Source of the DNA: Burkholderiales bacterium 67-32
GTDB lineage: Bacteria > Pseudomonadota > Gammaproteobacteria > Burkholderiales > Burkholderiaceae_B
Reading direction: 5' to 3'
Length of the DNA stretch: 64,000 bases
NCBI GenBank assembly: GCA_001898625.1
Contig: MKUP01000007.1
Span: forward strand, 104,385-168,384
Shown: in pieces, positions 22,815 through 47,411 of the stretch
How the letters are laid out: each line of letters opens with the position of its first letter
Numbering within the stretch: position 1 is the stretch's first letter
Notes under the pieces: model-generated
What the model was told of the DNA's origin: nothing
The model's database searches: none
The model's input: the letters and a program-made list of their open reading frames with translations, nothing else
Made by a program: the position numbers and the translations under genes

Positions 22815-24416
22815 ATGATTCAAGGCGTCGTCGATGCGGCAACCCTGAAGCGCATGCTCCACGATGGCGGCGAGATCGCGTTGCTCGATGTCCGGGAGGA
22901 AGGCGTGTTCGCCAAGGGGCACCTGTTTCTGGCCGCCCCGGTTCCGCTGTCCCAACTCGAGATCCGCGTGCCTGTGCTGGTGCCGCGCCGTTCGACGCGC
23001 ATCGTGGTGATGGACGGCGGCGAGGGCCTGGCCGAACGCGCGGCGGCGGCGCTTGTCCGGTACGGCCATGGCGACGTCTCGGTGCTCGAAGGCGGCCTGG
23101 AGGCGTGGGTCGATGCCGGGTACGAGGTGTACACGGGCGTGAACGTGCCGAGCAAGGCTTTTGGCGAGTACGTCGAGCTGCACGACGAGACTCCCCGCAT
23201 GGAAGCCGCCGACGTCAAGGCGCGCGTCGATCGCGGCGACGACATGGTCATCCTCGACAGCCGGCCGCTGGCCGAGTATCGCAAGGTCAGCATTCCCGGC
23301 GCCATCGACTGTCCGGGCGCGGAACTGGCCTATCGCGTCCACGACCTGGTGAAGTCGGATTCCACGCTGGTCGTCGTGAACTGCGGCGGGCGCACGCGCA
23401 GCATCATCGGTGCGCAGTCGCTGCGCAACGCCGGCATTCCCAACCGCGTTGTCGCATTGAAGAACGGCACGATGGGATGGCACCTGGCCGGTTTTCCGGT
23501 GGACAACGGCAAGGACTGGGCGGCGCCGCCTCCGACCGAGGCTGGTCTGCGCAAGGCGCGGGAGGCGGCGCAACGCGTCGCCCGGCGCTTCGGTATCCGT
23601 TTTCTGGACGCTGCCGGGCTCGACGCATTCCGGCGCGAGGCCGACACGCGCACCGTCTATCTGCTCGATGTGCGCAGCCCTGAAGAGTACGCGAGCCGCC
23701 ATCTGCGGGGCAGCGTCTCGGCGCCCGGCGGCCAGCTCGTGCAGACGACCGATACCTACGTGGCGGTGCGCAATGCCCGCCTGGTGCTGGTCGACGACCA
23801 CGGCGTGCGCGCAACCATGACCGCCTCATGGCTGATGCAGATGGGCTGGGACGAAGTCTACGTGCTGCGCGACGCCCTGCAGTACGGCGAATGGGTGGCC
23901 GAGCCGCCGGCGGCCGAGGTACTGGGGCTGGACGATATCCGGTGCGAGAGGATCTCTCCCCGGGCGCTCGCGGCGCTGTCCATCGAGGGTGCGAGCATCC
24001 TCGATCTCGATTCCAAGCCGCGCTATCGCGACGGCCACATCCCCGGGGCCTGGCATGGCATCCGCGCCAACCTCGCACGCAATCTCGCCCGGCTGCCCGC
24101 GGGTGATTGCATCGTCGTGACCTCGGCCGACAGCGTCCTGGCTACGCTGGCCGCGCCCGAGATCGCCGCGATCACGGGCGGCGACGTCCGCGTGCTGGAG
24201 GGCGGCACCCAGGCCTGGCGCGCGGCGGGCCATCCCATGGAAGAGGGCGAGACGCGGCTGACCGACGATACGGACGACGTCTGGGTGAAAGTGCACGACC
24301 GCACCGAGAACCGCGACCAGGCGATGAAAGACTACCTGAACTGGGAGGTCGATCTGATGACGCAGATCGGCCGCGACGACGACGCCGGGTTTCGCCGCTA
24401 TCCCACCGCTGAATAG
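22815..24416 (+). CDS. Four-domain rhodanese-like sulfurtransferase with one intact active site
   Basis: A 533-residue cytoplasmic protein made of four rhodanese modules, about residues 5-105, 125-232, 260-365 and 375-475, plus an acidic tail. Only the second module has the catalytic loop (VVNCGGRTRS, C190). In modules 1, 3 and 4 the cysteine position is occupied by D67, D328 and S438 or neighbours, so they are structural or binding modules. It moves sulfane sulfur to an acceptor. The start at 22815 follows AAGAGGAG. First gene of the island, with the strong promoter at 22709. Its presence next to hydro-lyases and a SoeABC-type enzyme hints at sulfur released from the substrate. Confidence 0.85.
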   Translation: MIQGVVDAATLKRMLHDGGEIALLDVREEGVFAKGHLFLAAPVPLSQLEIRVPVLVPRRSTRIVVMDGGEGLAERAAAALVRYGHGDVSVLEGGLEAWVDAGYEVYTGVNVPSKAFGEYVELHDETPRMEAADVKARVDRGDDMVILDSRPLAEYRKVSIPGAIDCPGAELAYRVHDLVKSDSTLVVVNCGGRTRSIIGAQSLRNAGIPNRVVALKNGTMGWHLAGFPVDNGKDWAAPPPTEAGLRKAREAAQRVARRFGIRFLDAAGLDAFRREADTRTVYLLDVRSPEEYASRHLRGSVSAPGGQLVQTTDTYVAVRNARLVLVDDHGVRATMTASWLMQMGWDEVYVLRDALQYGEWVAEPPAAEVLGLDDIRCERISPRALAALSIEGASILDLDSKPRYRDGHIPGAWHGIRANLARNLARLPAGDCIVVTSADSVLATLAAPEIAAITGGDVRVLEGGTQAWRAAGHPMEEGETRLTDDTDDVWVKVHDRTENRDQAMKDYLNWEVDLMTQIGRDDDAGFRRYPTAE

Positions 24417-24434
24417 GACCTCAAAGGAATCCTC

Positions 24435-25823
24435 ATGAGTCAGAACTCCGCGATCGTGAAGAACGAGGCGGGCGCCGACGCGCGCTCGGTGTCGCAGCGC
24501 ATTGCCGCGCATGTCGCCGGCTTGCGCCACGCCGCGCTGCCGCCCGGCACCGTCGAGGCGTCCAGGCGATTGATGCTGGACACGCTGGCTTGCGCGTGGG
24601 CCGGCCGCGATGCGCCGGGCGCGCCCGAGGCGCATGGACTGCTCGCGGCCGATGGCGGCACGCCAGAGGCCACGGTGTGGGGCTATGGCGGGAAGTTGCC
24701 GGCCGCGTCGGTGGCGTTCCTGAACAGCCTGTTCGGCGCGGCGCTCGACTATGACGCCGTGAACACCGTCCACGCGGACGTCTGCGTGCTGCCGGCCGCC
24801 CTGGCGGTGGCGGAGCGGCAGCGCGCGAGCGGCAAGGAGTTCCTGACCGCCTACGCGCTGGGCGCCGACCTGGCCTCGCGGCTGGGCGGCTCGATCACCG
24901 GGCAGCACCGGGGCTGGTTCACCACCTCGATCTATGGCGTGTTCGGCGCGACGGCGGCCGCCGCTCGCCTGCTGAAGCTGGACGAGACGGCCATCGCCCA
25001 TGCCTTCGGCATCGCGCTGAGCCAGGCCTCGGGCACCCAGCAGGCCAATATCGAACAGGCCCTGACCAAGCGGCTGCAATCGGCCTTCGCGGCGCGGGCC
25101 GGGGTGTTCTCGGCGCTGCTCGCCTCGCGCGGCGTGACCGCGCCGCGCGAAGCCTTCGAAGGCCGGTTCGGCTTGTTCCAGTTGTATCAGGAGGGCAATC
25201 CGCTCAAGGTGCTCGATGGCCTGGGCCTGTCCTTCGCGCTGGAACAGACCAATCTCAAGAAGTACCCGACCTGCGCCTGCAGCCATGCCGCGCTCGACGC
25301 CGCGTTCGCCCTGATCCGCGAGCACGACCTGAAGCCGGAGGACGTGAGCGCGATCGAGGTCGTGCATTCACCGTTGATGCACCGGCTGGTCGGGGCGCCG
25401 TTCGACCCCTCGGGCAACCCGCAGGTGACCGCGCAGTTCAGCGTTCGCTACGCGCTGGCCAGCGCGCTGCTGCGCCGGCGCGTCGCCATCGACGACATCC
25501 AGGAAGCCGCGGTGCTCGACCCGGCCATCCGCGCGATCACGGAACGCATCGCCGTCGTGGTCGACGAGGACAACAAGAGCGCCCGCGCCCCCGCCACGGT
25601 CTCCATGCAGACCCGGCACGGCAGGCTGTCGCGGACGGTGCACGAATTCCCGTGGAGCGCGGAGGCACCGCCCAGCGGCGAGGAACTGGCCGCCAAGATC
25701 GATGCCTGCTTCGGCTACGGCGGCGACGCATTGGCCCCCGCCGCGAGGAAGACGCTGATCGAACGCGTTCGCCGCATCGAGGATATCGACGACATGTCGG
25801 CGTTCTTCGCTGGCGTGCTGTGA
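24435..25823 (+). CDS. MmgE/PrpD-family hydro-lyase or epimerase (copy 1)
   Basis: A 462-residue all-helical MmgE/PrpD protein, the family that includes 2-methylcitrate dehydratase, cis-aconitate decarboxylase and iminodisuccinate epimerase. Family landmarks: LMLDTLACAWAGRDAPG, ALDYDAVNTVHADVCVLPAALAVAE, HAFGIALSQASGTQQANIEQ, and the KKYPTCACSHAALDA segment with the predicted catalytic Cys/Lys/His. The tract HRLVGAPFDPSGNPQVTAQFSV is nearly shared with copy 4 at 34503, so those two are close paralogues. It is 18 bp downstream of the rhodanese gene. Confidence 0.88.
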   Translation: MSQNSAIVKNEAGADARSVSQRIAAHVAGLRHAALPPGTVEASRRLMLDTLACAWAGRDAPGAPEAHGLLAADGGTPEATVWGYGGKLPAASVAFLNSLFGAALDYDAVNTVHADVCVLPAALAVAERQRASGKEFLTAYALGADLASRLGGSITGQHRGWFTTSIYGVFGATAAAARLLKLDETAIAHAFGIALSQASGTQQANIEQALTKRLQSAFAARAGVFSALLASRGVTAPREAFEGRFGLFQLYQEGNPLKVLDGLGLSFALEQTNLKKYPTCACSHAALDAAFALIREHDLKPEDVSAIEVVHSPLMHRLVGAPFDPSGNPQVTAQFSVRYALASALLRRRVAIDDIQEAAVLDPAIRAITERIAVVVDEDNKSARAPATVSMQTRHGRLSRTVHEFPWSAEAPPSGEELAAKIDACFGYGGDALAPAARKTLIERVRRIEDIDDMSAFFAGVL

Positions 25824-25854
25824 CACCTCAGGGCCGTTGCGAGGACAAGAACCG

Positions 25855-27222
25855 ATGGACACCAGTATTTCCCGCCTGGCGGATTTTGCCGCCGGACTGC
25901 GCTTCGAACATCTGGACGCGAGCGTGGCGCACGACTGCAAGCGCCGTCTGATCGATGCGCTGGGCTGCGGCGTCGCCGCGTTCGACGCGCCGCCGTCGCG
26001 GATCGCGCGCAAACTGGCCGCCCGCGTGGCGCTGCCGGACGGCGCTCCGGTGCTGGGGACGGCCCGGCGCACGCTGCCCGAGCTCGCGGCGTTCGCCAAC
26101 GGCGTCATGATCCGCTACCTGGACGGCAACGACACCTTTCCGGGCGGCGGCGGCCACCCGAGCGATGTCATGGCGGCGGTGCTGGCCGCGGCCCAGGAAG
26201 CCAAGGCCGATGGCCGCGCCACGATCACGGCCATCGTGGCGGCCTATGAGGTGTATGCGGCGCTGTTCCGCGCGGTCAACATGCGCGAGCGCGGCCTCGA
26301 CCACGTCTTCTATACGGCGGTGGCCGGCGCCGCCGGCGCCTGCAATGTCATGGGGCTGGACGCGGCGCGGACCGCGCAGGCGATCGCGCTGGCCGTGACC
26401 CCCAACCTCGCGCTGGAAGCCACCCGCCGCGGCGCCCTGTCCGAATGGAAGGGCTGCGCGGCCGGCAACGCGGCGCGCAACGGCTTGTTCGCGGCCCTGC
26501 TCGCGCGCGAGGGGCTGACTGGTCCGGAGCAGGCCATCGAAGGCGCCCACGGTCTGCGTGAACTGGTCGGAAGCTTCGACCTGCCCGAACTCGCCTCGCG
26601 CGGCGCGGGCTTTCGCATCGGTCAGGCGCACCTCAAGCGTTTCCTGGCCGAGTTCCATGCGCAGTCGCCGATCACCGCGGCGCTCGAACTGGCGCGCAAG
26701 GTGTCTCATGCCGACATCGCGCGGATCACCCTGCATACCTACCATTTCGCCTGGAGCGAGGTCGGCCACGAGCCCGAGAAATGGCGGCCGACCACGCGCG
26801 AGACCGCCGATCACAGCCTGCCCTACATGATCTCGGCGACCCTGATCGACGGCGATTTCAGCGACGCCGTCTTCGAGCCCGAGCGGCTGGCGGATGAGCG
26901 CATCCACGCGCTGGCGGCCAGGCTGGCGGTCGAGGAAGACCTGGACCTGAGCGCGCGTTTTCCCGCCTTCGTGCCCTGTCGCCTGGAGATCGTGACGCAT
27001 GGCGGCACGCGCCACGTCGCGACGGTCGATTATCCCCGCGGCCATGCCGCCAATCCCATGGACGATGCCGAGGTCGAGGAGAAGTTCCTCCGTCTGGCCG
27101 GCCGCCATCTGGACGAGGCGAGCGCGCGCTGCGCGCTCGACATGCTGTGGCGCCTGGACGCCTGCGAGACGCTTGAGGAGCTTTGGTCGGTTCTGGCCAT
27201 AGGGGGGGAGGAGAGATCATGA
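25855..27222 (+). CDS. MmgE/PrpD-family protein, PrpD-like subgroup (copy 2)
   Basis: A 455-residue MmgE/PrpD protein closer to 2-methylcitrate dehydratase than copies 1 and 4: it has the PrpD-like MIRYLDGNDTFPGGGGHPSDVMAAV tract and RGALSEWKGCAAGNAARNG. The ATG at 25855 is preferred to a TTG six codons upstream because a GAGGA site precedes it. Its stop overlaps the ATG of the next Bug receptor gene (ATGA), so receptor and enzyme are coupled. The substrate is probably a branched tri- or dicarboxylate, but not necessarily methylcitrate: no prpB, prpC or acnD is adjacent. Confidence 0.87.
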   Translation: MDTSISRLADFAAGLRFEHLDASVAHDCKRRLIDALGCGVAAFDAPPSRIARKLAARVALPDGAPVLGTARRTLPELAAFANGVMIRYLDGNDTFPGGGGHPSDVMAAVLAAAQEAKADGRATITAIVAAYEVYAALFRAVNMRERGLDHVFYTAVAGAAGACNVMGLDAARTAQAIALAVTPNLALEATRRGALSEWKGCAAGNAARNGLFAALLAREGLTGPEQAIEGAHGLRELVGSFDLPELASRGAGFRIGQAHLKRFLAEFHAQSPITAALELARKVSHADIARITLHTYHFAWSEVGHEPEKWRPTTRETADHSLPYMISATLIDGDFSDAVFEPERLADERIHALAARLAVEEDLDLSARFPAFVPCRLEIVTHGGTRHVATVDYPRGHAANPMDDAEVEEKFLRLAGRHLDEASARCALDMLWRLDACETLEELWSVLAIGGEERS

Positions 27223-28190
27223 AATACAGATTGCAGGGGATGATGGCCATCGCGCTGGCGGTGGCCGCGGGGCCGGCCTGGTCGGCGGACGCCTATCCGT
27301 CGAGACCGATACGCATCGTGATCCCGTTCGCGCCGGGCGGCACCGTCGACATCCTGGGGCGTGTGCTGGGCGAACAGCTCGGCACGCGGCTGGGACAGCC
27401 GGTCATCATCGACAACCGGCCTGGCGCCGGGGGCAACATCGCGGCGGCAAACGTCGCGCGCGCGGACCCGGACGGCTATACGCTGTTCCTCGGCTCGATG
27501 GGCACGCAGTCGATGAACGGCGCGATCTACGCCAAGCTCTCGTTCGACCCGATCGCCGATTTCGCGCCGATCACGCGCCTCGTCACCAGCGCCAACCTGC
27601 TGGTGGTGCATTCGTCGATCAAGGCGAAATCGGTCAAGGAACTGATCGATTACCTGAAGGCCAGGCCGGGACAGGTGAACTACGCCAGTGCGGGGATCGG
27701 CAGCTTCAACCACATCTCGGCCGTCCTGTTCGAGACGATGGCGGGCGTGAAGATGACGCACGTGCCCTACAAGAGCGGCGGCCAGGCGCTCAACTCCGTG
27801 CTGGCCGGCGAAACGCAACTGGTGTTCCAGACCATCCCGGCCGCGGTGCCCTACATCCAGGCAGGCAAGCTGAGGGCGCTGGCGGTCTGTTCCGAAGAAC
27901 GCCATCCCCTGTTTCCCGATCTGCCCACCGCCAGCGAGTCGGGCCTGCCCGGTTTCGAGATCAATACCTGGTACGGCATGCTGGCCCCGGCCGCCACGCC
28001 GCGCGCCGTGATCGACAAGCTCCACGATGCCCTGGTGCACACGCTGCAGGATCCCGCGATCCGCAAGCGCCTGACGGAGCTGGGCCTGGATGCCGCGCCG
28101 GACACGCCCGAGCAGTTCGCGGCGCTGATCAAGACCGATGCCGTGAAGTGGGGCAAGGTGATCAAGACGGCCGGCGTGGTGGCGGAATGA
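27219..28190 (+). CDS. Bug/TctC-type periplasmic solute-binding receptor
   Basis: A 323-residue receptor: signal peptide cleaved after AWS-A (about residue 22), DAYPSRPIRIVIPFAPGGTVDILGRVL, IIDNRPGAGGNIAAANVARADPDGYTL and HVPYKSGGQALNSVLAGETQLVF. It is translationally coupled by ATGA overlaps to the MmgE/PrpD gene before it and the SDR gene after it, which strongly ties its ligand to the surrounding pathway. Confidence 0.92.
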   Translation: MKYRLQGMMAIALAVAAGPAWSADAYPSRPIRIVIPFAPGGTVDILGRVLGEQLGTRLGQPVIIDNRPGAGGNIAAANVARADPDGYTLFLGSMGTQSMNGAIYAKLSFDPIADFAPITRLVTSANLLVVHSSIKAKSVKELIDYLKARPGQVNYASAGIGSFNHISAVLFETMAGVKMTHVPYKSGGQALNSVLAGETQLVFQTIPAAVPYIQAGKLRALAVCSEERHPLFPDLPTASESGLPGFEINTWYGMLAPAATPRAVIDKLHDALVHTLQDPAIRKRLTELGLDAAPDTPEQFAALIKTDAVKWGKVIKTAGVVAE

Positions 28191-28954
28191 GCGCGTCGAA
28201 CCGGCCCATGCAGGATGCTGTCGCCTGGGTGATCGGCGGCGCCGGGTCCCTGGGGCAGACGATCGCCGCGGCGCTTGCCGAGGCGGGGGCCCGGGTGATC
28301 GTGTCGTCCCGCCGCGTGGAAGGCTGTTGGCCCGTCCAGGGCCCGGACGGCATCTGGTCGCGGGGCGCGGTCGCGCTCGACCTGGCATCCGGCGCGCGGG
28401 TCGATGCGGCCGCGCGGGAAATCGAAGACCGATGCGGCCGCATCGACCTGCTCGTCAATTGCACCGCCGCGCCGGTCTTCGGCGATTTCCTCGAACTGGA
28501 CGACGAAGACTGGGACACGGTGCTGCAGGCCAAGCTGTTGGGCTACATGCGGACCATGCGGGCCGTCCTGCCCGGGATGGCCGGGCGCGGCGCCGGCGCC
28601 ATCGTCAACATCAGCGGACGCGGCGGCCGCCAGCCGACGCCGGCGCACCTGCCCGGCTGCTGCGCGAATGCCGCGGTCAACGTCCTGACCAAGGGCGTGG
28701 CTGATATCTACGGGCCGCGCGGTGTGCGCATCAACGCCATCGCGCCGGGCCCGATCGACACCCCGCGCCACCAGGAGATCGTCCAGGGCAATGCCCTGGC
28801 CGGCTCGGCCGCCTCGAAGAAGCTGCCGCCCGTGGGGCGCCTGGGCGAGCCCCGGGACGTCGCCGACGCGGTGCTGTTTCTTGCCAGCCCGGCGGCTGCG
28901 TTCATCACCGGCATCACCCTACCCGTGGATGGCGGCGGAACCGCCACCGTATAG
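28187..28954 (+). CDS. SDR-family protein lacking the canonical Tyr-Lys pair
   Basis: A 255-residue Rossmann-fold protein with the cofactor motif IGGAGSLGQ (about residues 17-25), the NCTAAP segment, catalytic-type S143 in NISGRGG and the C-terminal ITLPVDGGGT. Where the classical YxxxK motif should be (about residues 156-161) the sequence is PGCCAN, so both Tyr and Lys are replaced. It may bind NAD(P) without normal dehydrogenase chemistry, or use other residues. The start overlaps the previous stop (ATGA). Confidence 0.82.
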   Translation: MSASNRPMQDAVAWVIGGAGSLGQTIAAALAEAGARVIVSSRRVEGCWPVQGPDGIWSRGAVALDLASGARVDAAAREIEDRCGRIDLLVNCTAAPVFGDFLELDDEDWDTVLQAKLLGYMRTMRAVLPGMAGRGAGAIVNISGRGGRQPTPAHLPGCCANAAVNVLTKGVADIYGPRGVRINAIAPGPIDTPRHQEIVQGNALAGSAASKKLPPVGRLGEPRDVADAVLFLASPAAAFITGITLPVDGGGTATV

Positions 28955-28993
28955 CGAGAAAAGCGCGTGGACCAGGCGCGAAAAGGAGAGGAG

Positions 28994-29974
28994 ATGAGGA
29001 GCACTCAAGGCATTGCCCGGCTCGTGGCCGGGTGTCTGTGCATGGCCGCCGGCACGGCGGCGGCGGACGGGTTCCCGACCCGCCCGCTTCGCGTCATCGT
29101 CGGCTACCAGCCGGGCGGGGCCGCCGATCTCGTGGCGCGGGTCGCCGCCGAAGGACTGGGCGCCAAACTGGGCCAGCAGGTGGTGGTGGAGAACCGCCCG
29201 GGCGCGGGCGGGCTGATCGCCAACGAAATGGTCGCGGCGTCGTCGCCCGACGGCTATACGCTGCTGCTGGTGAATTCGTCGTTCGCCTATCTGCCCACGA
29301 TGTATTCGAAGCTGAAGTTCGACACGGTCAAGGACTTCGCGCCCGTCGCGCTGCTGGCGACGACGCAGAACGTGCTGGTGGTCAACGCCAACCTGCCGGC
29401 GAAGAACGTGAAGGAACTGGTCGCCCTGGCCAAAGCCAAGCCCGGCAAGCTGAGCTATGCCTCGGGCGGCCCGGGCGGATCCACCCATCTGTCGACGGAA
29501 TTGTTCAAGAGCATGACCGGCACCGACATCCTGCACATTCCCTACAAGGGCAATGCGCCGTCCATCGCCGATCTCAGCTCGGGGCAGGTCGATATGACCA
29601 TCGGCCCCATCCCGGCGTTGCTGCCCTTCATCAACGGCGGCGCGAACAGCAAGCTGCGCGCGCTGGCCACCAGCGGCGCCCAGCGCACGCCCATGCTGCC
29701 GGATCTGCCGACCATCGCCGAGGCTGGCGTGCCGGGCTACGACGCGGGTTCCTGGTACGGCTTCATGGTGGCCGCCAAGACACCCAAGGACATCCGTGAC
29801 AAGCTGGAGCAGGCGCTGCTGGCGGCCGGCAAATCGGACAAGTTCATCGAGCAGTTGAAGAGCGCGGGCGCGGAGCCGTCGGTGATGCCGGCCGACGAAT
29901 TCCGGCGCTTCGTCGCGAGCGAGACTGAAAAGTGGGGAACCATCATCCGGGAAACCGGTATCCGGGGCGATTGA
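28994..29974 (+). CDS. Bug/TctC-type periplasmic solute-binding receptor
   Basis: A 326-residue receptor. Signal peptide (cleaved near TAAA, residue 22), then GFPTRPLRVIVGYQPGGAADLVARVAA, VENRPGAGGLIANEMVAASSPDGYTL and HIPYKGNAPSIADLSSGQVDMTIG. The ATG at 28994 is preferred to an upstream GTG at 28967 because it sits after an AAGGAGAGGAG site. Second receptor within this operon, 23 bp upstream of the LeuC-type gene; possibly for a second substrate or for a related stereoisomer. Confidence 0.9.
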   Translation: MRSTQGIARLVAGCLCMAAGTAAADGFPTRPLRVIVGYQPGGAADLVARVAAEGLGAKLGQQVVVENRPGAGGLIANEMVAASSPDGYTLLLVNSSFAYLPTMYSKLKFDTVKDFAPVALLATTQNVLVVNANLPAKNVKELVALAKAKPGKLSYASGGPGGSTHLSTELFKSMTGTDILHIPYKGNAPSIADLSSGQVDMTIGPIPALLPFINGGANSKLRALATSGAQRTPMLPDLPTIAEAGVPGYDAGSWYGFMVAAKTPKDIRDKLEQALLAAGKSDKFIEQLKSAGAEPSVMPADEFRRFVASETEKWGTIIRETGIRGD

Positions 29975-29997
29975 GCGCCCGCTGCAAGGAGCATTCC

Positions 29998-31425: not shown

Positions 31426-31435
31426 GAGATTCCGC

Positions 31436-32071
31436 ATGGAGCCGTTTACCCGCCTGACCGCCATCGCGGCGCCGCTGGACCGCGCCGATGTCGATACCGA
31501 CATGCTGATTCCGCAGCGTTTCCTGCGCAAGCCCCTGACGGTGGGCTATCGCAGTTTCCTGTTCTACAACGACCGCTACGACGCGGCCGGCAAGCTCAAG
31601 GGCGATTTCCTGCTCGATCGCGAGCCCTATACCCGGGCGCGCATCATCGTCTCGGGGCCGAACTTCGGCTGCGGCTCGACGCGCGAAGGGGCGGTCTACG
31701 CCGTGGTCGATTTCGGCATCCGCGCCGTGATCGCGCCGAGCTTCGGGCCGTTCTACGCCAGCAACGCCTACCAGAACGGGCTGCTACCTGTCGTGCTGCC
31801 CGAGGACGTGGTGCGCGGGCTGCTGGAACAACTGGCCGCCGTGCCGGGCGCCGAGATCACCATCGATCTGCCCAGCCAGACGGTGACCGATCCGGCGGGC
31901 AGGCAATACCGCTTCGAGATCGAGCCGGCCCGCAAGGAACGCATGCTGGGCGGCATCGACGATATCGCGGCCACCGGCGAGTTCGCCCAGATGCGCGATG
32001 CCCTCGAACGCAAGCTCGAAGCCGAGACGCCCTGGCTGACGGGCAAGGAACTGGCGGAGCTCACGTCGTGA
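31436..32071 (+). CDS. Aconitase-superfamily dehydratase, small subunit (LeuD-like)
   Basis: A 211-residue swivel-domain subunit pairing with the LeuC-like protein, 10 bp downstream of it. It has the DRADVDTDMLIPQRFLRK start, the active-site loop NFGCGSTREGAVYAV and NAYQNGLLPV. In typical LeuD proteins the loop is GCGSSREHA; here Gly replaces His. That suggests altered substrate specificity. Its stop overlaps the GTG start of the next MmgE/PrpD gene. Confidence 0.88.
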   Translation: MEPFTRLTAIAAPLDRADVDTDMLIPQRFLRKPLTVGYRSFLFYNDRYDAAGKLKGDFLLDREPYTRARIIVSGPNFGCGSTREGAVYAVVDFGIRAVIAPSFGPFYASNAYQNGLLPVVLPEDVVRGLLEQLAAVPGAEITIDLPSQTVTDPAGRQYRFEIEPARKERMLGGIDDIAATGEFAQMRDALERKLEAETPWLTGKELAELTS

Positions 32072-33438: not shown

Positions 33439-33459
33439 TGATCGAATCGGAGATAGGCA

Positions 33460-33651: not shown

Positions 33652-33668
33652 ATCAGGGAATCCACCGA

Positions 33669-37054: not shown

Positions 37055-37153
37055 GGCTGGGTCTCGTCCAATCGTTTTTCGGGCAACGTCTCGCTTGGCG
37101 GAAACGCGCTGGAAACAGACTACTCCGCGTGCCCTGGGGCTGCAATACTGATT

Positions 37154-37213
37154 TTCCAAATATTAGAACAGCTTTCCAAATTTATTGACAGCCTCACCGC
37201 ATGTCCGTAAATT
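37154..37213 (+). promoter_or_regulatory. Promoter of the amidohydrolase-SoeABC operon with TTCYAA-type operator
   Basis: TTCCAA (37154-37159), TTAGAA (37163-37168) and TTCCAA (37174-37179), then a perfect -35 TTGACA (37185-37190), a 17-bp spacer and a -10 TAAATT (37208-37213). About 20 of the first 24 bases equal the element at 22679, and the distance to -35 differs by one base. It drives the plus-strand genes from 37284; the same region must contain the divergent minus-strand promoter. Confidence 0.78.
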
Positions 37214-37283
37214 ACCCAGCCAATACGCCGTGCCGCCACGAGCGTTCCTTCCCCTCCCACCCTCATACCTAGCGGGCCCGCAC

Positions 37284-38456: not shown

Positions 38457-38486
38457 ACGGCGCACACACTTATCGAGGGAGCGAGG

Positions 38487-39974: not shown

Positions 39975-39977
39975 ATC

Positions 39978-41330
39978 ATGGAAACAACCGGCTTCGCCGA
40001 CGGCGACGAGATCCGCGCCCGGTTCTCCCGCCGCATGTCGGAAATGTACAGGCGCGAAGTGCCGCAGTACGGCGCGCTGCTGGACCTGGTGGCGGACGTC
40101 AATGCCGCCGCGCTGCAACGCGATCCGGCGCTGCGCGACCACCTGGCGCACGCCGGAGAGCTGGAGCGCCTGGGCGTCGAACGCCACGGCGCGATCCGCC
40201 TCGGTTCCGCCGGGGAGCTCGCCACGATGCGGCGCGTCTTCGCGGTCATGGGCATGCGGCCTGTCGGCTACTACGATCTTTCCGTCGCGGGCGTGCCCGT
40301 GCACGCCACGGCTTTCCGTCCGGTGGACGACACCTCCCTGGCGCGCAATCCGTTCCGGGTCTTCACGTCGCTGTTGCGCCTGGAGCTGATCGAGGATGCC
40401 GGCTTGCGCCAGGTCGCGGCGGACATCCTGGGACGGCGCCGGATCTTCACCCCCCGCCTGCTGGCCCTGGTCGAGCGGGCGGAGGGGCAGGGCGGGCTGG
40501 CCGGGGCCGAGGCCGACGAACTGGTGGCCGAAGCCCTGCAAACCTTCCGTTGGCACAGTGCGGCGACGGTGGATCAGGCGACCTATGCCAGGCTGCACGA
40601 TGCCCACCGCCTGGTCGCCGACGTCGTGTGCTTCAAGGGGCCGCACATCAATCACCTGACGCCGCGCACGCTGGACATCGATGCCGTGCAGGCGGCCATG
40701 CCGGCGCGAGGCATCGCCGCCAAGACGGTGATCGAAGGACCGCCTCCGCGCAACGTGGCGCTCCTGCTCAGGCAGACCAGCTTCAAGGCGCTGGAGGAGC
40801 GCATCGCCTTCGTGGGGGAGGACACCCGGGCGCCGGGCACGCATACCGCCCGCTTCGGCGAGATCGAACAGCGGGGCGTAGCGCTGACCCGCAAGGGACG
40901 CATGCGCTACGACGCGCTGCTGGCGAGCGCGCGGCGGAGCGCGTCGGGCAGGGACTATGCCGGCCATCTGGCCGGTGCGTTCAAGGACTTCCCCGACGAC
41001 CTGCCCACGCTGCGGCGCGAAGGGCTCGCCTTTTTCCGCTACGCGCGCACCGGCCGGGGCAACCGGGACGGCGCTGACGCGAATCTGTCCCTGGAGACGC
41101 GGATCGAGCGTGGCCTGGTCCGGGCCGATCCCATCGTCTACGAGGATTTCCTGCCCGTCAGCGCCGCGGGCATCTTCCAGTCCAACCTGGGTGATGCCGG
41201 ACCGCGCAGCTATGCCGGCAACGCCGCGCAGGCGGCATTCGAGCAGGCCCTGGGGGCGCCGGTGCTGGACGAAATCGCGCTGTACGAAGCGGCGCAGGCC
41301 CGTTCGCTCGACGCGCTCGCGCAAAGGTGA
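39978..41330 (+). CDS. 2-oxoadipate dioxygenase/decarboxylase (HglS/YdcJ, DUF1338) family
   Basis: A 450-residue VOC-fold iron enzyme. HglS of Pseudomonas converts 2-oxoadipate to D-2-hydroxyglutarate and CO2. The likely metal ligands are H70 (VERHGAIRLG), H226 (GPHINHLTPR) and E295 (ARFGEIEQRG), at almost the same positions as the triad I recall for P. putida HglS. The 450-residue length is also right. Only 3 bp separate it from the TcuA-like gene, and 4 bp from etfB. In this setting it would shorten a 2-oxo dicarboxylate formed in the pathway; D-2-hydroxyglutarate then needs a flavin dehydrogenase. Confidence 0.82.
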   Translation: METTGFADGDEIRARFSRRMSEMYRREVPQYGALLDLVADVNAAALQRDPALRDHLAHAGELERLGVERHGAIRLGSAGELATMRRVFAVMGMRPVGYYDLSVAGVPVHATAFRPVDDTSLARNPFRVFTSLLRLELIEDAGLRQVAADILGRRRIFTPRLLALVERAEGQGGLAGAEADELVAEALQTFRWHSAATVDQATYARLHDAHRLVADVVCFKGPHINHLTPRTLDIDAVQAAMPARGIAAKTVIEGPPPRNVALLLRQTSFKALEERIAFVGEDTRAPGTHTARFGEIEQRGVALTRKGRMRYDALLASARRSASGRDYAGHLAGAFKDFPDDLPTLRREGLAFFRYARTGRGNRDGADANLSLETRIERGLVRADPIVYEDFLPVSAAGIFQSNLGDAGPRSYAGNAAQAAFEQALGAPVLDEIALYEAAQARSLDALAQR

Positions 41331-41334
41331 AGCC

Positions 41335-42084
41335 ATGAAAATATTGGTCGCGGTCAAGCGGGTGGTGGACTACAACGTGAAGGTCCGCGTCAAGGCGGAC
41401 GGCTCGGGGGTGGACATCGCCAATGCGAAGATGAGCATGAATCCTTTCGACGAGATCGCCGTCGAGGAAGCCGTCCGGCTGAAGGAACAGGGCATCGCCA
41501 CCGAGGTCGTGGCCGTTTCCTGCGGTGTCGCCGCGTGCCAGGAGACCTTGCGCACGGCCATGGCCATGGGCGCCGACCGGGGCATCCTGGTCGAGACCGA
41601 CGAAGCGCTGCAGCCGCTGGCCGTGGCCAAGCTGCTCAAGGCGCTGGCCGACCGGGAGCAGCCCCGGCTCATGCTGCTGGGCAAACAGGCCATCGACGAC
41701 GATGCCAACCAGACGGGCCAGATGCTGGCGGCGCTGGCGGACCTGCCGCAGGCGACCTTCGCGGGCAGAGTCGAGCTGCGGGACGGCGAGGCGGTGGTCA
41801 CCCGCGAAGTCGACAAGGGCGTGGAGACCGTCGTGCTGTCCCTGCCCGCCGTCGTCACCGTCGACCTGCGGCTGAACGCGCCGCGCTTCGTCACGCTGCC
41901 CAATGTCATGAAAGCCAGGAAGAAGACCATCGAGGTCGTCAAGCCCGACGATCTCGGCGTCCAGGTCGGATCGCGCCTGCGCACGATCCGTGTCACCGAG
42001 CCGCGTTCGCGCACGGCGGCAGCCAGGGTGCCCGACGTGGCGACGCTGGTCGACCGGTTGCGCAACGAAGCCAAGGTCCTTTGA
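41335..42084 (+). CDS. etfB: Electron transfer flavoprotein subunit beta
   Basis: A 249-residue ETF beta chain that binds AMP and forms a heterodimer with EtfA. Recognised by MKILVAVKRVVDYNVKVRVKADGSGVD, NPFDEIAVEEAVRLKE and the C-terminal VTVDLRLNAPRFVTLPNVMKARKK. It takes electrons from flavin dehydrogenases. It lies 4 bp downstream of the HglS-type gene, so it serves the local TcuA-like enzyme in all likelihood. An extra ETF copy besides the housekeeping one is expected in such genomes. Confidence 0.95.
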   Translation: MKILVAVKRVVDYNVKVRVKADGSGVDIANAKMSMNPFDEIAVEEAVRLKEQGIATEVVAVSCGVAACQETLRTAMAMGADRGILVETDEALQPLAVAKLLKALADREQPRLMLLGKQAIDDDANQTGQMLAALADLPQATFAGRVELRDGEAVVTREVDKGVETVVLSLPAVVTVDLRLNAPRFVTLPNVMKARKKTIEVVKPDDLGVQVGSRLRTIRVTEPRSRTAAARVPDVATLVDRLRNEAKVL

Positions 42085-42095
42085 AGGAGAGTCGC

Positions 42096-43028
42096 ATGGC
42101 CGCACTCGTCGTTGCCGAGCACGACAACGTTTCCATCGGTCCCGCCACGCTCAGTACCGTCGCGGCGGCGGCTGCCTGTGGCGGCGAGGTTCATGTACTG
42201 GTGGCTGGCAGCGGGGCGGACGAAGCCGCCCGGGCCGCATCCCGGATCGCCGGCGTCGCCCGGGTGCTGCATGCCGACGCACCCTGCCTGGCCGATGGCC
42301 TGGCCGAGAACGTCGCGGCCCAGGTGCTTGCCGTGGCCAGCGGCTACGGCCACATTCTTTTTCCCGCGAACGCCGGCGGCAAGAGCGTCGCGCCCCGCGT
42401 CGCGGCGAAGCTCGATGTCTCCCAGGTCAGCGACATCGTCCGCGTGGAAAGCGCGGACACCTTCGAGCGGCCCATCTATGCCGGCAACGCACTGGCCCTG
42501 GTGCAGAGCGGCGATCCCGTCAAGGTGATCACCGTGCGCGCCACGGGTTTCGATCCGGTGGCGGAGACGGGCGGGGATGCGTCGATCGAATCCATACCGG
42601 CGGTGTCCGGCCACGGCAAGAGTCGTTTCGCCGGACGCGAGATCAGCAGCAGCGATCGTCCCGACCTGGCCGCCGCGAAGATCGTGGTGTCGGGCGGCCG
42701 CGGGCTGGGCAGTGCCGACCGGTTCAGGGAGATCATCGGGCCGCTGGCCGACAAGCTGGGCGCGGCGATCGGCGCCAGCCGCGCCGCCGTCGATGCGGGC
42801 TATGCCCCGCACGACCTGCAGGTCGGGCAGACCGGCAAGGTCGTGGCGCCGCAGCTCTACATCGCCACCGGCATTTCGGGCGCCATCCAGCACCTGGCGG
42901 GCATGAAGGACTCCAAGGTGATCGTGGCGATCAACAAGGACGGCGAGGCGCCGATCTTCGGCGTTGCCGACTATGGACTGGAGGCCGACCTGTTCGAGGC
43001 GGTCCCGGAACTCCTGACGCGGCTCTGA
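42096..43028 (+). CDS. etfA: Electron transfer flavoprotein subunit alpha
   Basis: A 310-residue ETF alpha chain. The FAD domain is clear near the C-terminus: [54 protein letters not shown] and [23 protein letters not shown]. It is 11 bp after etfB with an AAGGAGA site. It would deliver electrons to the ETF-ubiquinone oxidoreductase, which is not in this window. Confidence 0.95.
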
Positions 43029-43049
43029 CGCCATCCCGCAAGGAACCCC

Positions 43050-45854
43050 ATGCTCGATTTCCTGCGTCCCACCCCGCCCGTCCACGACCCGCTCGAGCCG
43101 CCCCTGCCCGGCGCCGCGAACGAGATCAAGTACACGACCTGCTACATGTGCGCGTGCCGCTGCGGCATTCGTGTGCATCTGCGCGATGGCGAGGTCCGCT
43201 ACATCGACGGCAATCCGGACCATTCGCTGAACGAGGGGAAGATCTGCGCCAAGGGCTCGTCCGGCATCATGAAGCAGCACTCGCCCGCCCGGCTCACGGT
43301 GCCGCTCAAGCGCCGGCCGGGCACCGCCCGCGGCGACGGGGAATATGTCGAGATCTCGTGGGACGAAGTCTATGCCACGCTGGCCGAACGCCTGGGCCGT
43401 ATCCGCGCCACGGATCCCAAACGCTTCGCGCTGTTCACGGGCCGCGACCAGATGCAGGCCCTGACGGCGCTCTGGGCGCGCCAGTTCGGCACGCCCAACT
43501 ACGCCGCGCATGGCGGATTCTGTTCGGTCAACATGGCCGCCGGCATGATCTACAGCATAGGCGGCTCGTTCTGGGAGTTCGGCGGCCCGGACCTGGAGCA
43601 TGCCAGGCTGTTCGTGATGATAGGCACCGCCGAGGACCATCACTCCAATCCGCTGAAGACCGCGATCTCGAAGTTCAAGCGTGCCGGCGGCCGCTTCATC
43701 TCCATCAATCCCGTGCGCACCGGGTACTCCGCCATCGCCCATGAATGGATCCCGATACGGCCGGGAACCGACGGAGCGCTTTTCATGGCGCTGATCCGGG
43801 AATTGATCGCCACCGGCGAATTCGACCGCGATTTCGTCGCGCGCTACACCAACGCGATGGACCTGGTCGACCTGGACAACGGCCTCGTCGTCGGCAAGGG
43901 CGACGCGCTGGAGGGTGAGCGCGAGGTGGCGGGCAAGCCCGCCAAGCCCGCGTTCGAGCTCCTGCGCGAACGCGTGGCGGACTGTACGCCGGAATGGGCC
44001 AGCGCCATCACCGGCATCCCGGCGGCACGCATCGTCGCGCTGGCCCGCGAGATGGGCGAGACGGCCATGCGCGCCTCGTTCGAACTACCCATCCCCTGGA
44101 CGGACACCGATGGCGTGGAGCATGCGGGCGTCGTCGCCCGCCCCGTGGCGTTCCATGCGATGCGCGGTCTGGCCGCGCATTCCAACGGATTCCAGACCAT
44201 CCGCGCGCTGGCCATCCTGATGAGCCTGCTGGGCACGATAGACCGGCCCGGTGGTTTCCGCCACAAGGCGCCGTTCCCGAAAGCCATCCCGCCGGGCGTG
44301 CGGCCGCCGAATTCCTGGGACCAGGTACGGCCGATGACGCCGCTGGGCGCCGCCCCGCTGGGATTCCCGGCCTGTCCCGACGATCTGGCGGTGGGGCCCG
44401 GCGGCGAACCGATACGGATAGACAAGGGGTTTTCCTGGGAGCATCCGCTGTCGGCCCACGGCCTGATGCACAACGTCATCACCAACGCCTGGCGTGGCGA
44501 TCCGTACCGTATCGACACCCTGCTGATCTTCATGGCGAACATGGCGTGGAACTCGACCATGAACACCACCCAGGTGCGGGCCATGCTGAACGACCGCGGC
44601 CCGGACGGCGAATACCGGATTCCCTTCATCGCGGTGTGCGACGCCTTCGCCTCGGAGATGACCCAGTACGCCGATCTGATCCTGCCGGACACCACCTACC
44701 TGGAGCGCCACGACGCGATGTCGCTGCTCGACCGGCCGATTTCCGAGTTCGACGGACCGGTGGACTCCGTGCGCATACCCGTGGTCGCGCCGAAAGGGCA
44801 GTGCAAGCCTTTCCAGGAAGTGCTGATCGAATTGGGCTGGCGCCTGAAGCTGCCGGTGTTCACCGAACCGGACGGCGGGCGCAAGTACCAGGGCTATGAA
44901 GACTTCATCGTTCGCTACGAGACCGCGCCCGGCTCGGGCATCGGCTTTCTGGGCGGCTGGCGCGGCGCGGACGGCGGCAAATCGCTGGTCGGCGAGCCCA
45001 ACCCACGGCAGTGGGAAAAGTATGCCGAGAACAATTGCGTGTTCCATCACGAATTGCCGCCCGGCATGCAATACATGCGCAACTGGAACCGCGACTATCT
45101 TGCCTTTGCCCGGCAGGCCGGGTTCAACGGCGCGCCGGAGCCCATTCGCATCCATCTGTACTCGCCGGTGATGCAGGCGTTCCGGCTGGCCGCCCAGGGC
45201 CGGCGCGAAGGCAAGCAGCCGCCGCCGCACCTGCGCGCGCGCATCGAGCGCCATTTCGATCCGCTGCCTTTCTGGTCGCCGCCGCTGGAGTACGCCGCGA
45301 CCGATCTCGAGAAGTATCCGCTCAACGCCATCACGCAGCGGCCCATGGCCATGTATCACTCGTGGGACTCGCAGAACGCCTGGCTGCGCCAGATCCACAG
45401 CCACAACTACCTCATGGTCAATCCGGCCACCGCGCGCGCCGCCGGGATCGAGGACGGCGGATGGATCTGGGTCGAATCGCAGTGGGGCCGGCTGCGATGC
45501 ATGTGCCGCTACAGCGAGGCGGTCGAACCCGGCACCGTCTGGACCTGGAACGCCATCGGCAAGTCGCGCGGCGCCTGGAATCTCGGGCCGCAGGCCGACG
45601 AGTCCAGCAAGGGATTCCTGCTCAACCACCTGATCTCGGAAGAGCTGCCCCTGCCTGGCACCGGCACGGGCGGGACGGTTTCCAACAGCGATCCGGTCAC
45701 CGGCCAGGCTGGCTGGTACGACGTCCGTGTGCGCATCAGCCCGGCGGATCCCGGCGAGCCCAAGGAGGTCTGGCCGCGGTTTCCCGCCATGAAGCAGATG
45801 CCGGGCACCGGCATCATCCGCAAGGTCCAGGCCTATTTCGCCGGCAACAAGTGA
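43050..45854 (+). CDS. soeA: Molybdopterin oxidoreductase catalytic subunit, SoeA-like (sulfite dehydrogenase)
   Basis: A 934-residue bis-MGD molybdoenzyme of the DMSO-reductase family. An N-terminal [4Fe-4S] site is made of C31, C34, C38 and C66 (TTCYMCACRCG ... GKICAKG). Bis-MGD binding tracts follow, such as FTGRDQMQALTALWARQFGTPN and LFVMIGTAEDHHSNPL. There is no twin-arginine signal, so it works in the cytoplasm. This favours SoeA (quinone-linked sulfite dehydrogenase) over periplasmic PhsA/PsrA. Size and the B and C subunits that follow match SoeABC. Substrate assignment is still by analogy; the island context (rhodanese) supports sulfite. Confidence 0.8.
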   Translation: MLDFLRPTPPVHDPLEPPLPGAANEIKYTTCYMCACRCGIRVHLRDGEVRYIDGNPDHSLNEGKICAKGSSGIMKQHSPARLTVPLKRRPGTARGDGEYVEISWDEVYATLAERLGRIRATDPKRFALFTGRDQMQALTALWARQFGTPNYAAHGGFCSVNMAAGMIYSIGGSFWEFGGPDLEHARLFVMIGTAEDHHSNPLKTAISKFKRAGGRFISINPVRTGYSAIAHEWIPIRPGTDGALFMALIRELIATGEFDRDFVARYTNAMDLVDLDNGLVVGKGDALEGEREVAGKPAKPAFELLRERVADCTPEWASAITGIPAARIVALAREMGETAMRASFELPIPWTDTDGVEHAGVVARPVAFHAMRGLAAHSNGFQTIRALAILMSLLGTIDRPGGFRHKAPFPKAIPPGVRPPNSWDQVRPMTPLGAAPLGFPACPDDLAVGPGGEPIRIDKGFSWEHPLSAHGLMHNVITNAWRGDPYRIDTLLIFMANMAWNSTMNTTQVRAMLNDRGPDGEYRIPFIAVCDAFASEMTQYADLILPDTTYLERHDAMSLLDRPISEFDGPVDSVRIPVVAPKGQCKPFQEVLIELGWRLKLPVFTEPDGGRKYQGYEDFIVRYETAPGSGIGFLGGWRGADGGKSLVGEPNPRQWEKYAENNCVFHHELPPGMQYMRNWNRDYLAFARQAGFNGAPEPIRIHLYSPVMQAFRLAAQGRREGKQPPPHLRARIERHFDPLPFWSPPLEYAATDLEKYPLNAITQRPMAMYHSWDSQNAWLRQIHSHNYLMVNPATARAAGIEDGGWIWVESQWGRLRCMCRYSEAVEPGTVWTWNAIGKSRGAWNLGPQADESSKGFLLNHLISEELPLPGTGTGGTVSNSDPVTGQAGWYDVRVRISPADPGEPKEVWPRFPAMKQMPGTGIIRKVQAYFAGNK

Positions 45855-45858
45855 TCCC

Positions 45859-46479
45859 ATGACCCAACTCGCGCTTGTCATCGATCTGGACGTCTGCGTG
45901 GGCTGCCACGCCTGCGTGACCTCCTGCAAGCAGTGGAACACCTCCGGCTCGGCCGGGCCGCTGGAGGACGCGAACCCCTACGGCGAAAGCCCGAGCGGCA
46001 CGTTCTTCAACCGCGTGCAGACCTTCGAGGTGGGTGAGTTTCCGCTGACCGAGACGCTGCATTTTCCCAAGAGCTGCCTGCATTGCGAGGATCCGCCCTG
46101 CGTGCCGGTCTGTCCCACCGGCGCGTCGTACAAGCGCAAGGAGGACGGCATCGTGCTGGTGGACTACGACAAGTGCATAGGCTGCAAGTACTGTTCGTGG
46201 GCCTGTCCGTACGGCGCGCGCGAACTCGACGAAGGGCGCAAGGTGATGACCAAGTGCACGCTTTGCGTGGACCGCGTCCACAACGAGGCGCTGCCCGAGA
46301 GTGAACGCAAGCCGGCCTGCGTGATGGCCTGTCCGACCAATGCGCGGCTGTTCGGCGACGTGCACGACGAGGATTCCGAGGTGTCGCGGGCGATACGCGA
46401 ACGCGACGGCTACACGCTGATGCCGGAGTGGGGCACGCGGCCGGCCAATCACTACCTGCCGCGCCGGAGCCGCACATGA
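45859..46479 (+). CDS. soeB: 4Fe-4S ferredoxin subunit, SoeB-like
   Basis: A 206-residue electron-transfer subunit with four cysteine groups for [4Fe-4S] clusters: CVGCHACVTSC, CLHCEDPPCVPVCP, CIGCKYCSWACP and CTLC...CVMACP. No signal peptide. It starts 4 bp after soeA and its stop overlaps the soeC start. It conducts electrons from SoeA to the membrane subunit. Confidence 0.88.
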   Translation: MTQLALVIDLDVCVGCHACVTSCKQWNTSGSAGPLEDANPYGESPSGTFFNRVQTFEVGEFPLTETLHFPKSCLHCEDPPCVPVCPTGASYKRKEDGIVLVDYDKCIGCKYCSWACPYGARELDEGRKVMTKCTLCVDRVHNEALPESERKPACVMACPTNARLFGDVHDEDSEVSRAIRERDGYTLMPEWGTRPANHYLPRRSRT

Positions 46480-47411
46480 AGCCGGCCTGGTCGGTCATCT
46501 TCCTGACCACACTGTGCGGCATGGCGCAGGGCCTGATGCTGGCGCTGGTCGGCGCGGACGTGCTGGGCGCGCCGCTCGAACCGGCCGCGGCGCAGCGTTT
46601 CTTCGGCGGCGGAGCGCTGCTGTGCGTCGGGCTGGCGGGCCTGGGGCTGTTCGCGTCGTTTTTCCACCTGGGGCGGCCCGAACGCTTCTGGCGCAGCGCC
46701 GCCATGTGGCGCACCTCGTGGCTGTCGCGCGAGGTCATCGCCGTGCCGGCCTTCATCGGCGCGGCGTCATGGTACGCCTGGGCCCACCATGCCGGACAGG
46801 GCTACGCCACGGCCGTGGGTGTGCTGTGCGTGGCATGCGCGCTGGCGCTGTGGGTGTGCACCGCGATGATCTACGCGTGCCTGCGCTTCATCCGCGAATG
46901 GGCCAGCCCCTACACCCTGGCCAACTTCGCCGTGCTGGGCTGCGCCTCGGGCTTCACCGCGGCGTCGGCCTGGGCGGCCTGGACGGCGCCGCGCTGGGTG
47001 CCGGCCTACCTGCTGGCCGCCTACCTGATGCTGGCCGCCGGCCTGGCGGTCCGGTTGTTGATGCTGCGCCGCAATGCGCGGCTGCGGCCGGGCTCCACCT
47101 TGCAGAGCGCGCTGGGTGTCCGGCATCCGGTCATCGCGCAGAAATCCATGGGCGCGATGGGCGGCACCTTCAATACGCGCGAATTCTTCCATGGCCGCAG
47201 CGCGGCCGCGATCCGCGGTGTGCGCTGGGCTTTCCTGTTGCTGTTGTTCCCCGGTTCGGCGCTGTTGCTGGCATGGGGGCAGCTTCGGGCCAGCGGCGCG
47301 CTGCTGGCGGCGGCGCTGGCGGTGCAGTACCTGGGGCTGCTGGCGGAGCGGTGGTTTTTTTTCGCACAGGCCAATCATCCGCAGAATCTGTACTACCAGG
47401 TGGTGTCCTGA
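46476..47411 (+). CDS. soeC: Membrane anchor subunit, DmsC-family (SoeC-like)
   Basis: A 311-residue integral membrane protein with about eight spans, of the DmsC family, which anchors molybdoenzyme complexes and reduces quinone. Typical pieces: ASFFHLGRPERFWRSAAMWRTSWLSREV and the C-terminal LLAERWFFFAQANHPQNLYYQVV. The start at 46476 overlaps the soeB stop (ATGA). It closes the operon that starts at 37284. Confidence 0.86.
   Translation: MKPAWSVIFLTTLCGMAQGLMLALVGADVLGAPLEPAAAQRFFGGGALLCVGLAGLGLFASFFHLGRPERFWRSAAMWRTSWLSREVIAVPAFIGAASWYAWAHHAGQGYATAVGVLCVACALALWVCTAMIYACLRFIREWASPYTLANFAVLGCASGFTAASAWAAWTAPRWVPAYLLAAYLMLAAGLAVRLLMLRRNARLRPGSTLQSALGVRHPVIAQKSMGAMGGTFNTREFFHGRSAAAIRGVRWAFLLLLFPGSALLLAWGQLRASGALLAAALAVQYLGLLAERWFFFAQANHPQNLYYQVVS

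Follow-up and report, generated by a model that had tools for sequence, protein, structure and literature searches.

The 64,000-nucleotide stretch analysed here (G000:C7:104385-168384, the window in what follows) is from a Pigmentiphaga genome and contains a real, conserved catabolic island and not a chance grouping of genes. It appears to be a polycarboxylate catabolic island of a known kind that carries an uncharacterised, apparently Rieske-less clade of oxygenases, and its most informative parts are two predicted dinuclear-metal oxygenases of the amidohydrolase fold and a predicted 2-oxoadipate dioxygenase/decarboxylase, HglS. The reading we favour, with a probability of roughly 55%, is that the island serves the catabolism of one or a few related polycarboxylic acids, by way of the oxygenases and, in Pigmentiphaga, to 2-oxoadipate; it builds on gene content, synteny, the division into core and accessory genes, the metal-ligand set and the HglS residues, each of which is observed directly.

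Genes were taken from a custom codon-based caller and assigned to families with Pfam and NCBIfam, and every gene class listed in an earlier sequence-only reading of the window was found at its place. Spacing and strand define three transcription units: T1 (22815-33651) and T3 (37284-48799) are transcribed rightwards (+) and T2 (37054 to 34503) leftwards (-), with intra-unit gaps of -4 to 98 bp and divergent intergenic regions of 230 bp (22585-22814) and 229 bp (37055-37283). T2 contains amidohydrolase A followed by MmgE/PrpD 4, and T3 contains amidohydrolase B, a TcuA-like dehydrogenase, HglS, the beta and alpha subunits of an electron transfer flavoprotein (ETF), SoeA-, SoeB- and SoeC-type subunits and an NCS1-family permease.

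The core of the island recurs as one compact operon, with protein identities of 58-79%, in L031, a locus from a metagenome-assembled genome (MAG) labelled Betaproteobacteria only. There a leftwards-transcribed TctC gene precedes a row encoding the rhodanese, the TcuA-like protein, MmgE/PrpD 1 and 2, TctC, a short-chain dehydrogenase/reductase (SDR), TctC, an amidohydrolase, LeuC, LeuD and MmgE/PrpD 3, after which comes a gene for a small vicinal oxygen chelate (VOC) protein. L032, which is cut by its contig end, has the same order from TctC, SDR, TctC and the amidohydrolase through LeuC, LeuD and MmgE/PrpD 3 to the VOC protein; the contig-limited L034 has TctC, SDR and TctC, then the first part of the amidohydrolase gene, and a further locus in the same MAG (L033) has a second, truncated amidohydrolase gene (68% identity) divergent from an MmgE/PrpD 2-like gene. 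Because genes of T1 and T3 form one operon in L031, the two units are not independent. The sequence-only reading had taken the linked units for a single catabolic system, and this synteny agrees with it, since the L031 operon joins the TcuA-like and amidohydrolase genes to those for the rhodanese, MmgE/PrpD, TctC, SDR and LeuCD; separately moving operons are not what is seen.

The core thus consists of the TctC receptors, the four-domain rhodanese, the TcuA-like dehydrogenase, three MmgE/PrpD proteins, the SDR, one amidohydrolase and LeuCD. In T1 the genes, all on the plus strand, are those for the 533-residue rhodanese (22815-24416; four Pfam stretches, 66% identity in L031), MmgE/PrpD 1 (24435-25823), MmgE/PrpD 2 (25855-27222), a TctC receptor (27219-28190), the SDR (28187-28954), a second TctC receptor (29042-29974), the large (LeuC-type, 29998-31425; 69% identity in L031) and small (LeuD-type, 31436-32071) hydro-lyase subunits, MmgE/PrpD 3 (32068-33438) and a rubredoxin (33460-33651; Pfam and NCBIfam); MmgE/PrpD 1, the SDR and the two receptors are assigned by Pfam and synteny. 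The gene membership given in the sequence-only reading holds with two amendments. A TctC gene divergent from the rhodanese (21619-22584, -; Pfam TctC, 230.7 bits), encoding a solute receptor of the tripartite tricarboxylate transporter (TTT) type, also belongs to the core, as it has the same place and orientation in L031 (62% identity). Secondly, SoeABC and the rubredoxin are accessory and not constant members. The island is carried by four of the eleven Pigmentiphaga genomes (G000, which holds the window; G002, P. kullae K24; G005, SAGV5; and G007), and rubredoxin is present at this place in G000 and G007; the gap there is too short in K24 (L029) and SAGV5 (L030/L049), with 80 bp and ~140 bp respectively between MmgE/PrpD 3 and the IclR gene for a rubredoxin gene of 192 bp. 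With the gene absent from its island place in two of four carriers, rubredoxin was rejected as a fixed electron donor.

The two proteins described in the sequence-only reading as paired amidohydrolases are both present and both match Amidohydro_2 (PF04909), but the term is only a Pfam name and the metal ligands point to dinuclear oxygenases. Protein A (35879-37054, -) and the core protein B (37284-38456, +; 79% identity in L031, 78% in L032) share 63% identity. The nearest solved sequences are PtmU3, AibH1H2 and DitZ for A, and PtmU3, AibH1H2 and then ACMSD for B. PtmU3 and AibH2 are dinuclear monooxygenases of amidohydrolase-related type. The AibH2 metal ligands are D25, H27, H211, E265, D337 and H340, and an acidic residue at position 342 (Asp342) is reportedly conserved in dinuclear members only (PMC7782822, PMC10401708). 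A and B carry the motifs D-x-H, LH, TEAG and DYPHDD, and thus have the residue expected at all seven positions, the six ligands and the Asp at +2. We compared these alignment columns in 44 rows, 26 from the clade of A and B and 18 from other PF04909 proteins (L017 contributes no row); six clade rows repeat a gene copy, leaving 20 distinct members of which those of L033 and L034 are truncated, and the full set is present in 18/18 full-length distinct members, which come from Pigmentiphaga, from genus g38 and from two MAGs. Among the other rows 15 of 18 have His in place of the Glu, and 14 of these 15 also lack the DYPH His, the remaining one (a row of L037) ending before it; L015 keeps the full set, and L014 and L035 keep the six ligands without the acid at +2. 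A tree built from 22 of the 44 rows came with a long-branch warning and is given no weight here.

As this set matches that of the AibH2/PtmU3/SfbO type, A and B are probably O2-dependent dinuclear-metal oxygenases. The 2-aminoisobutyrate hydroxylase AibH1H2 of Rhodococcus wratislaviensis, PtmU3 and SfbO share with them the PF04909 family, the six metal ligands and the acid two residues after the DYPH His, and the aib locus, like the island, has two amidohydrolase genes in one catabolic locus. However, the acid missing from AibH1 is retained in A as well as in B; both therefore look dinuclear, and a mononuclear plus dinuclear pair of the AibH1/AibH2 kind is not favoured. Broader sampling gave close relatives in one other genus only: the order sample had them in 8 of its 398 further genomes (E 1e-60), the class sample in 0/273 (E 1e-60) and the phylum sample in 0/397 (E 1e-40). 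The three samples overlap, and the core MAGs lie outside them, having been found by a pattern-based scan. Among plasmids 82 records match B, all at <60% identity, the best 20 of the 82 at 22-28%. The genus g38, of another family, has a single oxygenase-B relative (62-64% identity) at L050-L056; at L050 it lies with genes for an aminotransferase, a carboxyltransferase, an enolase-superfamily protein, an isocitrate/isopropylmalate-dehydrogenase-family protein and several TctC receptors, neighbours that suggest a different pathway with the same oxygenase clade, and there is no Rieske protein among the four g38 neighbours scanned with Pfam.

The second informative component is HglS (39978-41330, +), which matches NF049974 at 704.6 bits against a cut-off of 550; an HglS-type dioxygenase had been listed in the sequence-only reading, which left its pointer to 2-oxoadipate unused. 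Alignment with Pseudomonas putida HglS, an enzyme of D-lysine catabolism, shows that H70, H226 and E295 (which we take to be the numbers of the metal triad), R74 and the Val-Ser loop are all kept. For the P. putida enzyme, the reported key residues are an HHE metal triad, Arg74, V402 and S403, 2-oxoadipate was the only active compound in a panel of keto acids, and Arg74 was needed (PMC7286885). The retention of residues known for strict 2-oxoadipate use suggests that in Pigmentiphaga carbon probably reaches 2-oxoadipate and then D-2-hydroxyglutarate. HglS is single-copy in the genome at E 1e-10, is present in 4/4 island carriers and 1/7 other Pigmentiphaga (that one at 67% identity), and is rare in the order (8/300 sampled genomes, this one included). 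It lies between the TcuA-like and ETF genes with gaps of 3 and 4 bp, unlike the HglS genes at eight non-island loci, none of which is beside ETF or TcuA genes (four examined within 1.5 kb and four within ~6-7 kb).

The TcuA-like flavin adenine dinucleotide (FAD) dehydrogenase (38487-39974, +; 73% identity in L031) matches NF006130 at 577.3 bits (cut-off 369) and TIGR02485 at 279.5, below the cut-off of 372.55. Tricarballylate utilisation is encoded by the gene set tcuRABC, in which TcuB re-oxidises TcuA, and, like it, the island combines a TcuA-like dehydrogenase with uptake genes in a cluster for organic acids. It differs in that no TcuB or TcuC counterpart is present among the Pfam matches of the island, no dedicated search for TcuB having been made, and Pigmentiphaga has an ETF instead (beta subunit, 41335-42084, +; alpha subunit, 42096-43028, +; Pfam and NCBIfam). 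A C6 keto-dicarboxylate intermediate would fit homoaconitase-type chemistry by LeuCD and the SDR. The four MmgE/PrpD proteins are far under the PrpD equivalog cut-offs of 458, 575 and 950 bits (best score 152.9); MmgE/PrpD 2 is closest to the 2-methylcitrate dehydratase PrpD, and for MmgE/PrpD 3 the nearest solved structure is iminodisuccinate epimerase (2hp0, 212 bits), which makes a pathway for iminodisuccinate or ethylenediamine disuccinate a family-level lead only.

In the pathway we propose, TctC receptors would help to bring in the polycarboxylic acid or acids. Attack by one or both dinuclear-metal oxygenases, as hydroxylation or O2-dealkylation, would fall on the substrate itself or on an intermediate formed early. 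Desaturation by the TcuA-like flavoprotein could follow, LeuCD and the MmgE/PrpD enzymes may move water across the new double bond, isomerise or eliminate, and the SDR would oxidise a hydroxyl group, with loss of CO2. The skeleton would arrive in Pigmentiphaga at 2-oxoadipate, which HglS would convert to D-2-hydroxyglutarate. The ETF might take electrons from the TcuA-like enzyme, from a D-2-hydroxyglutarate dehydrogenase presumably encoded elsewhere, or from both; that the ETF or the rubredoxin might also supply the oxygenases is the weakest step, and these two are candidate oxygenase electron donors in Pigmentiphaga only. Should the substrate contain sulfur, the rhodanese and, where present, SoeABC would handle sulfane sulfur or sulfite.

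Several observations weigh against this scheme. The scores by which LeuC and LeuD pass the leuC and leuD equivalog-domain cut-offs (TIGR00170, 621.5 bits against 560.25; TIGR00171, 178.1 against 116.25) do not separate them from an isopropylmalate isomerase role. HglS was not found in the three core-bearing MAG genomes, and although this absence is weak, as MAGs may be incomplete, 2-oxoadipate cannot be claimed for the core. There is also no ETF or rubredoxin match in the MAG loci, so that no electron donor is evident there, and no Rieske protein was recognised: 37 proteins scanned from 18071 to 61991 gave no PF00355 match, nor did the MAG core operon or the g38 loci, where most genes were outside the Pfam scan. 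Leftward of 18071 three genes were scanned, with no match, the remaining genes there being outside the scan. A model of B (predicted local distance difference test (pLDDT) score 72, predicted TM-score (pTM) 0.80, from 10 sequences) has DitZ and PtmU3 as its top Foldseek matches in the PDB; yet mononuclear decarboxylases come just behind, the E values being 2.9e-15 for DitZ and 7.7e-15 for ACMSD, and their target-normalised TM-score is the higher, at 0.74 against 0.61-0.68. AibH1H2 ranks only 38, and pLDDT is <50 in some of the loops around the ligands. The identity of B to solved members in this search is only ~16-21%. Given the closeness of ACMSD, the rank of AibH1H2 and the low-pLDDT loops, the fold alone does not decide between oxygenase and decarboxylase.

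The alternative that survives best is a thio-polycarboxylate substrate (mercaptosuccinate, thiodisuccinate or similar) whose sulfur passes through sulfite to SoeABC, the oxygenases cleaving the C-S bond by hydroxylating the adjacent carbon. It is compatible with the preferred reading and the odds of the two overlap; in this specific form we regard it as possible though doubtful, and the broader idea of a sulfur-bearing substrate, also put forward in the sequence-only reading, or of a sulfite by-product is reasonable and not required, with chances somewhat short of even. SfbO dealkylates at a carbon adjoining a heteroatom (PMC10811679), and the rhodanese, whose family occurs in 79 members of a 399-genome sample of the order, is itself core. 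By eye, only domain 2 of the window protein keeps the catalytic-loop Cys (VNCGGRTRS, Cys190), the other three domains being without it, and the pattern VNC[A/G]GRTRS is found in 21/21 rhodanese loci compared (from 20 genomes, two loci belonging to the window genome) and in L031. At 12 of the 21 loci a distantly cysteine-dioxygenase-like protein adjoins the rhodanese or is fused with it; nine of these twelve proteins match an annotated cysteine dioxygenase (L141, from Azospirillum, where it adjoins a protein related to the rhodanese) with E values of 1e-3 or better, and the other three (L109, L117, L118) are linked through clustering alone. Mercaptosuccinate dioxygenase (Msdo) genes of Advenella and Variovorax cluster with a rhodanese gene, and in strain B4 a molybdopterin oxidoreductase was proposed for sulfite (PMC5373536). 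The island thus resembles the mercaptosuccinate systems of Variovorax paradoxus B4 and Advenella mimigardefordensis in its rhodanese gene, and that of B4 in having a molybdoenzyme, SoeABC, comparable with the one proposed for sulfite. Unlike the mercaptosuccinate cluster, it has no cupin thiol dioxygenase of the Msdo type recognisable by Pfam.

Weakening the case for sulfur, Pfam recognises no gene in the island for a thiol dioxygenase, a desulfinase or sulfide oxidation, and the link to dioxygenases is distant, as Pfam CDO_I matches only one (L124) of six rhodanese-linked proteins scanned, besides L141. The family also occurs without a dioxygenase-like neighbour: at L106, L111 and L113 the rhodanese lies near MmgE/PrpD, HMGL-like and coenzyme A (CoA)-transferase genes (Pfam run on L106 only; TctC in two of the three), a further link of the rhodanese to organic-acid clusters in other genomes of the order. 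The window genome has a second four-domain rhodanese, L133 (G000:C7:183475-185046, ~15 kb beyond the window), with genes for a distant dioxygenase-like protein, a VOC protein, TctC and IclR/LysR regulators as neighbours. The dioxygenase-like protein has no Pfam match and an E value of 3e-4 to the annotated cysteine dioxygenase, and the VOC protein is related to that ending the MAG core operon.

SoeABC bears on the same question from both sides. The trio consists of a molybdenum bis-pyranopterin guanine dinucleotide (Mo-bisPGD) subunit (SoeA-type, 43050-45854, +), a 4Fe-4S subunit (SoeB-type, 45859-46479, +), both assigned by Pfam and NCBIfam, and a DmsC-family membrane anchor (SoeC-type, 46476-47411, +; Pfam), and no N-terminal twin-arginine (Tat) signal is seen in SoeA by eye. 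SoeABC enzymes are characterised by three subunits, a DmsC/NrfD-type anchor and a catalytic subunit on the cytoplasmic side (PMC8076601). The trio, a putative SoeABC, fits this description in its domain make-up; no NCBIfam equivalog passes for the SoeA-type subunit. SoeA is present in 3/4 island carriers and in 0/7 other Pigmentiphaga, and a 54% SoeA relative in Indioceanicola shares a gene row with TTT components, SucC-like and CoA-binding proteins and an aldehyde dehydrogenase, both of which favour a thio-polycarboxylate. However, in K24 the permease gene comes immediately after ETF alpha, with both flanks ~93% identical to the window and no Soe remnant between them, and SoeA is absent anywhere in that genome at E 1e-30. 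A full-length SoeA was also not found in the three core MAG genomes, one of which has a 33% match over residues 29-266 only; as MAGs may be incomplete and their completeness is not given, the absence in K24 is the stronger case. A SoeA relative is present in 8/61 other related genomes, and the seven of these eight (non-Pigmentiphaga) whose surroundings were compared all have SoeA, B and C together with the other island genes missing, except for TctC receptors in two and, in one of those two (L129), a 31% MmgE match ~7 kb off. A pathway ending in SoeABC, as the sequence-only reading proposed, was therefore discarded as a trait of the core; SoeABC is not a necessary end point and looks like an optional add-on.

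It is unlikely that A and B are instead ordinary mononuclear enzymes (decarboxylases or hydratases similar to ACMSD) of a tricarboxylate pathway without sulfur. Such a role would be consistent with PF04909 being the only certain assignment for either protein, with the near-equal scores of decarboxylases in the fold search and with the lack of a Rieske reductase, which separates the island from AibH2-type systems: no Rieske or ferredoxin reductase was found beside A and B, and ETF and, in two of four carriers, rubredoxin are present instead. An adjacent Rieske gene accompanies 90% of 555 AibH2-like genes (PMC10401708); it is nevertheless a common companion and not a catalytic requirement, and PtmU3 is not described with one in the text seen. 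Against a mononuclear site, every complete clade member has Asp for the first His of HxH, Glu for the GHxG-type His, and DYPH with Asp at +2.

A patchwork, in which HglS and ETF end lysine catabolism, SoeABC is a general sulfite detoxification system and the TctC/MmgE/LeuCD operon alone forms a pathway, is improbable: SoeABC does stand elsewhere in other genomes, HglS occurs without the island in other genera and the MAG genomes gave no full-length copy of either, but HglS is tightly spaced between TcuA and ETF and restricted in the genus to carriers and one other genome, and TcuA and oxygenase B belong to the L031 core operon. There is also a slim chance that a fully joined version applies, in which a Rieske-independent dinuclear (Fe/Fe or Mn/Fe) oxygenase clade, fed by ETF or rubredoxin and paired in Pigmentiphaga, would open a new aerobic route for a sulfur-bearing C7-type tricarboxylate; O2-dependent cleavage of a C-H or C-S bond and homoaconitase-like steps (TcuA, LeuCD, MmgE, SDR) would lead to 2-oxoadipate, HglS would give D-2-hydroxyglutarate, and sulfur would leave as sulfate via the rhodanese and SoeABC.

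The amidohydrolase-related dinuclear oxygenases described so far are very few (PMC10811679), and characterisation was lacking for the AibH2-like proteins identified from sequence (PMC10401708). The neighbours of the present clade are unusually informative, comprising a dehydrogenase, hydro-lyases, an SDR, dedicated receptors and an HglS whose studied relative is strictly 2-oxoadipate-specific, so that the substrate range is narrowed and directly testable. The island would show whether amidohydrolase-fold oxygenases can dispense with a Rieske protein, and it is a caution that an oxygenase may lie behind the label 'amidohydrolase' in a catabolic island. No description of this gene combination or of this Pigmentiphaga cluster is present among the literature matches listed (titles and abstract starts), most subscription journals being outside coverage.

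An IclR-family regulator gene (33750-34511, +, start uncertain; Pfam) starts 98 bp past T1. MmgE/PrpD 4 (34503-35867, -; Pfam and synteny) is found only in Pigmentiphaga among the compared island loci and is a paralogue of MmgE/PrpD 1; together with amidohydrolase A it resembles a duplicate of MmgE/PrpD 1 and amidohydrolase B (49% and 63% identity respectively). The NCS1-family permease (47492-48799, +; Pfam) follows SoeC in the window and ETF alpha in K24, and relatives at 64% identity adjoin the same rhodanese family in G211 and G136. Upstream of the island (19074-21618) there is a TctC gene together with a class-I fumarase pair and a LysR gene; as this stretch is in G005 and absent at that place in G002 and G007, it is a module separate from the island. 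Finally, a row at 52636-57644 encodes TctC, an FAD monooxygenase, an isochorismatase-family protein, a 355-residue protein without a Pfam match and an alpha/beta hydrolase, and by these Pfam classes it resembles a nicotinate (nic) catabolic cluster.

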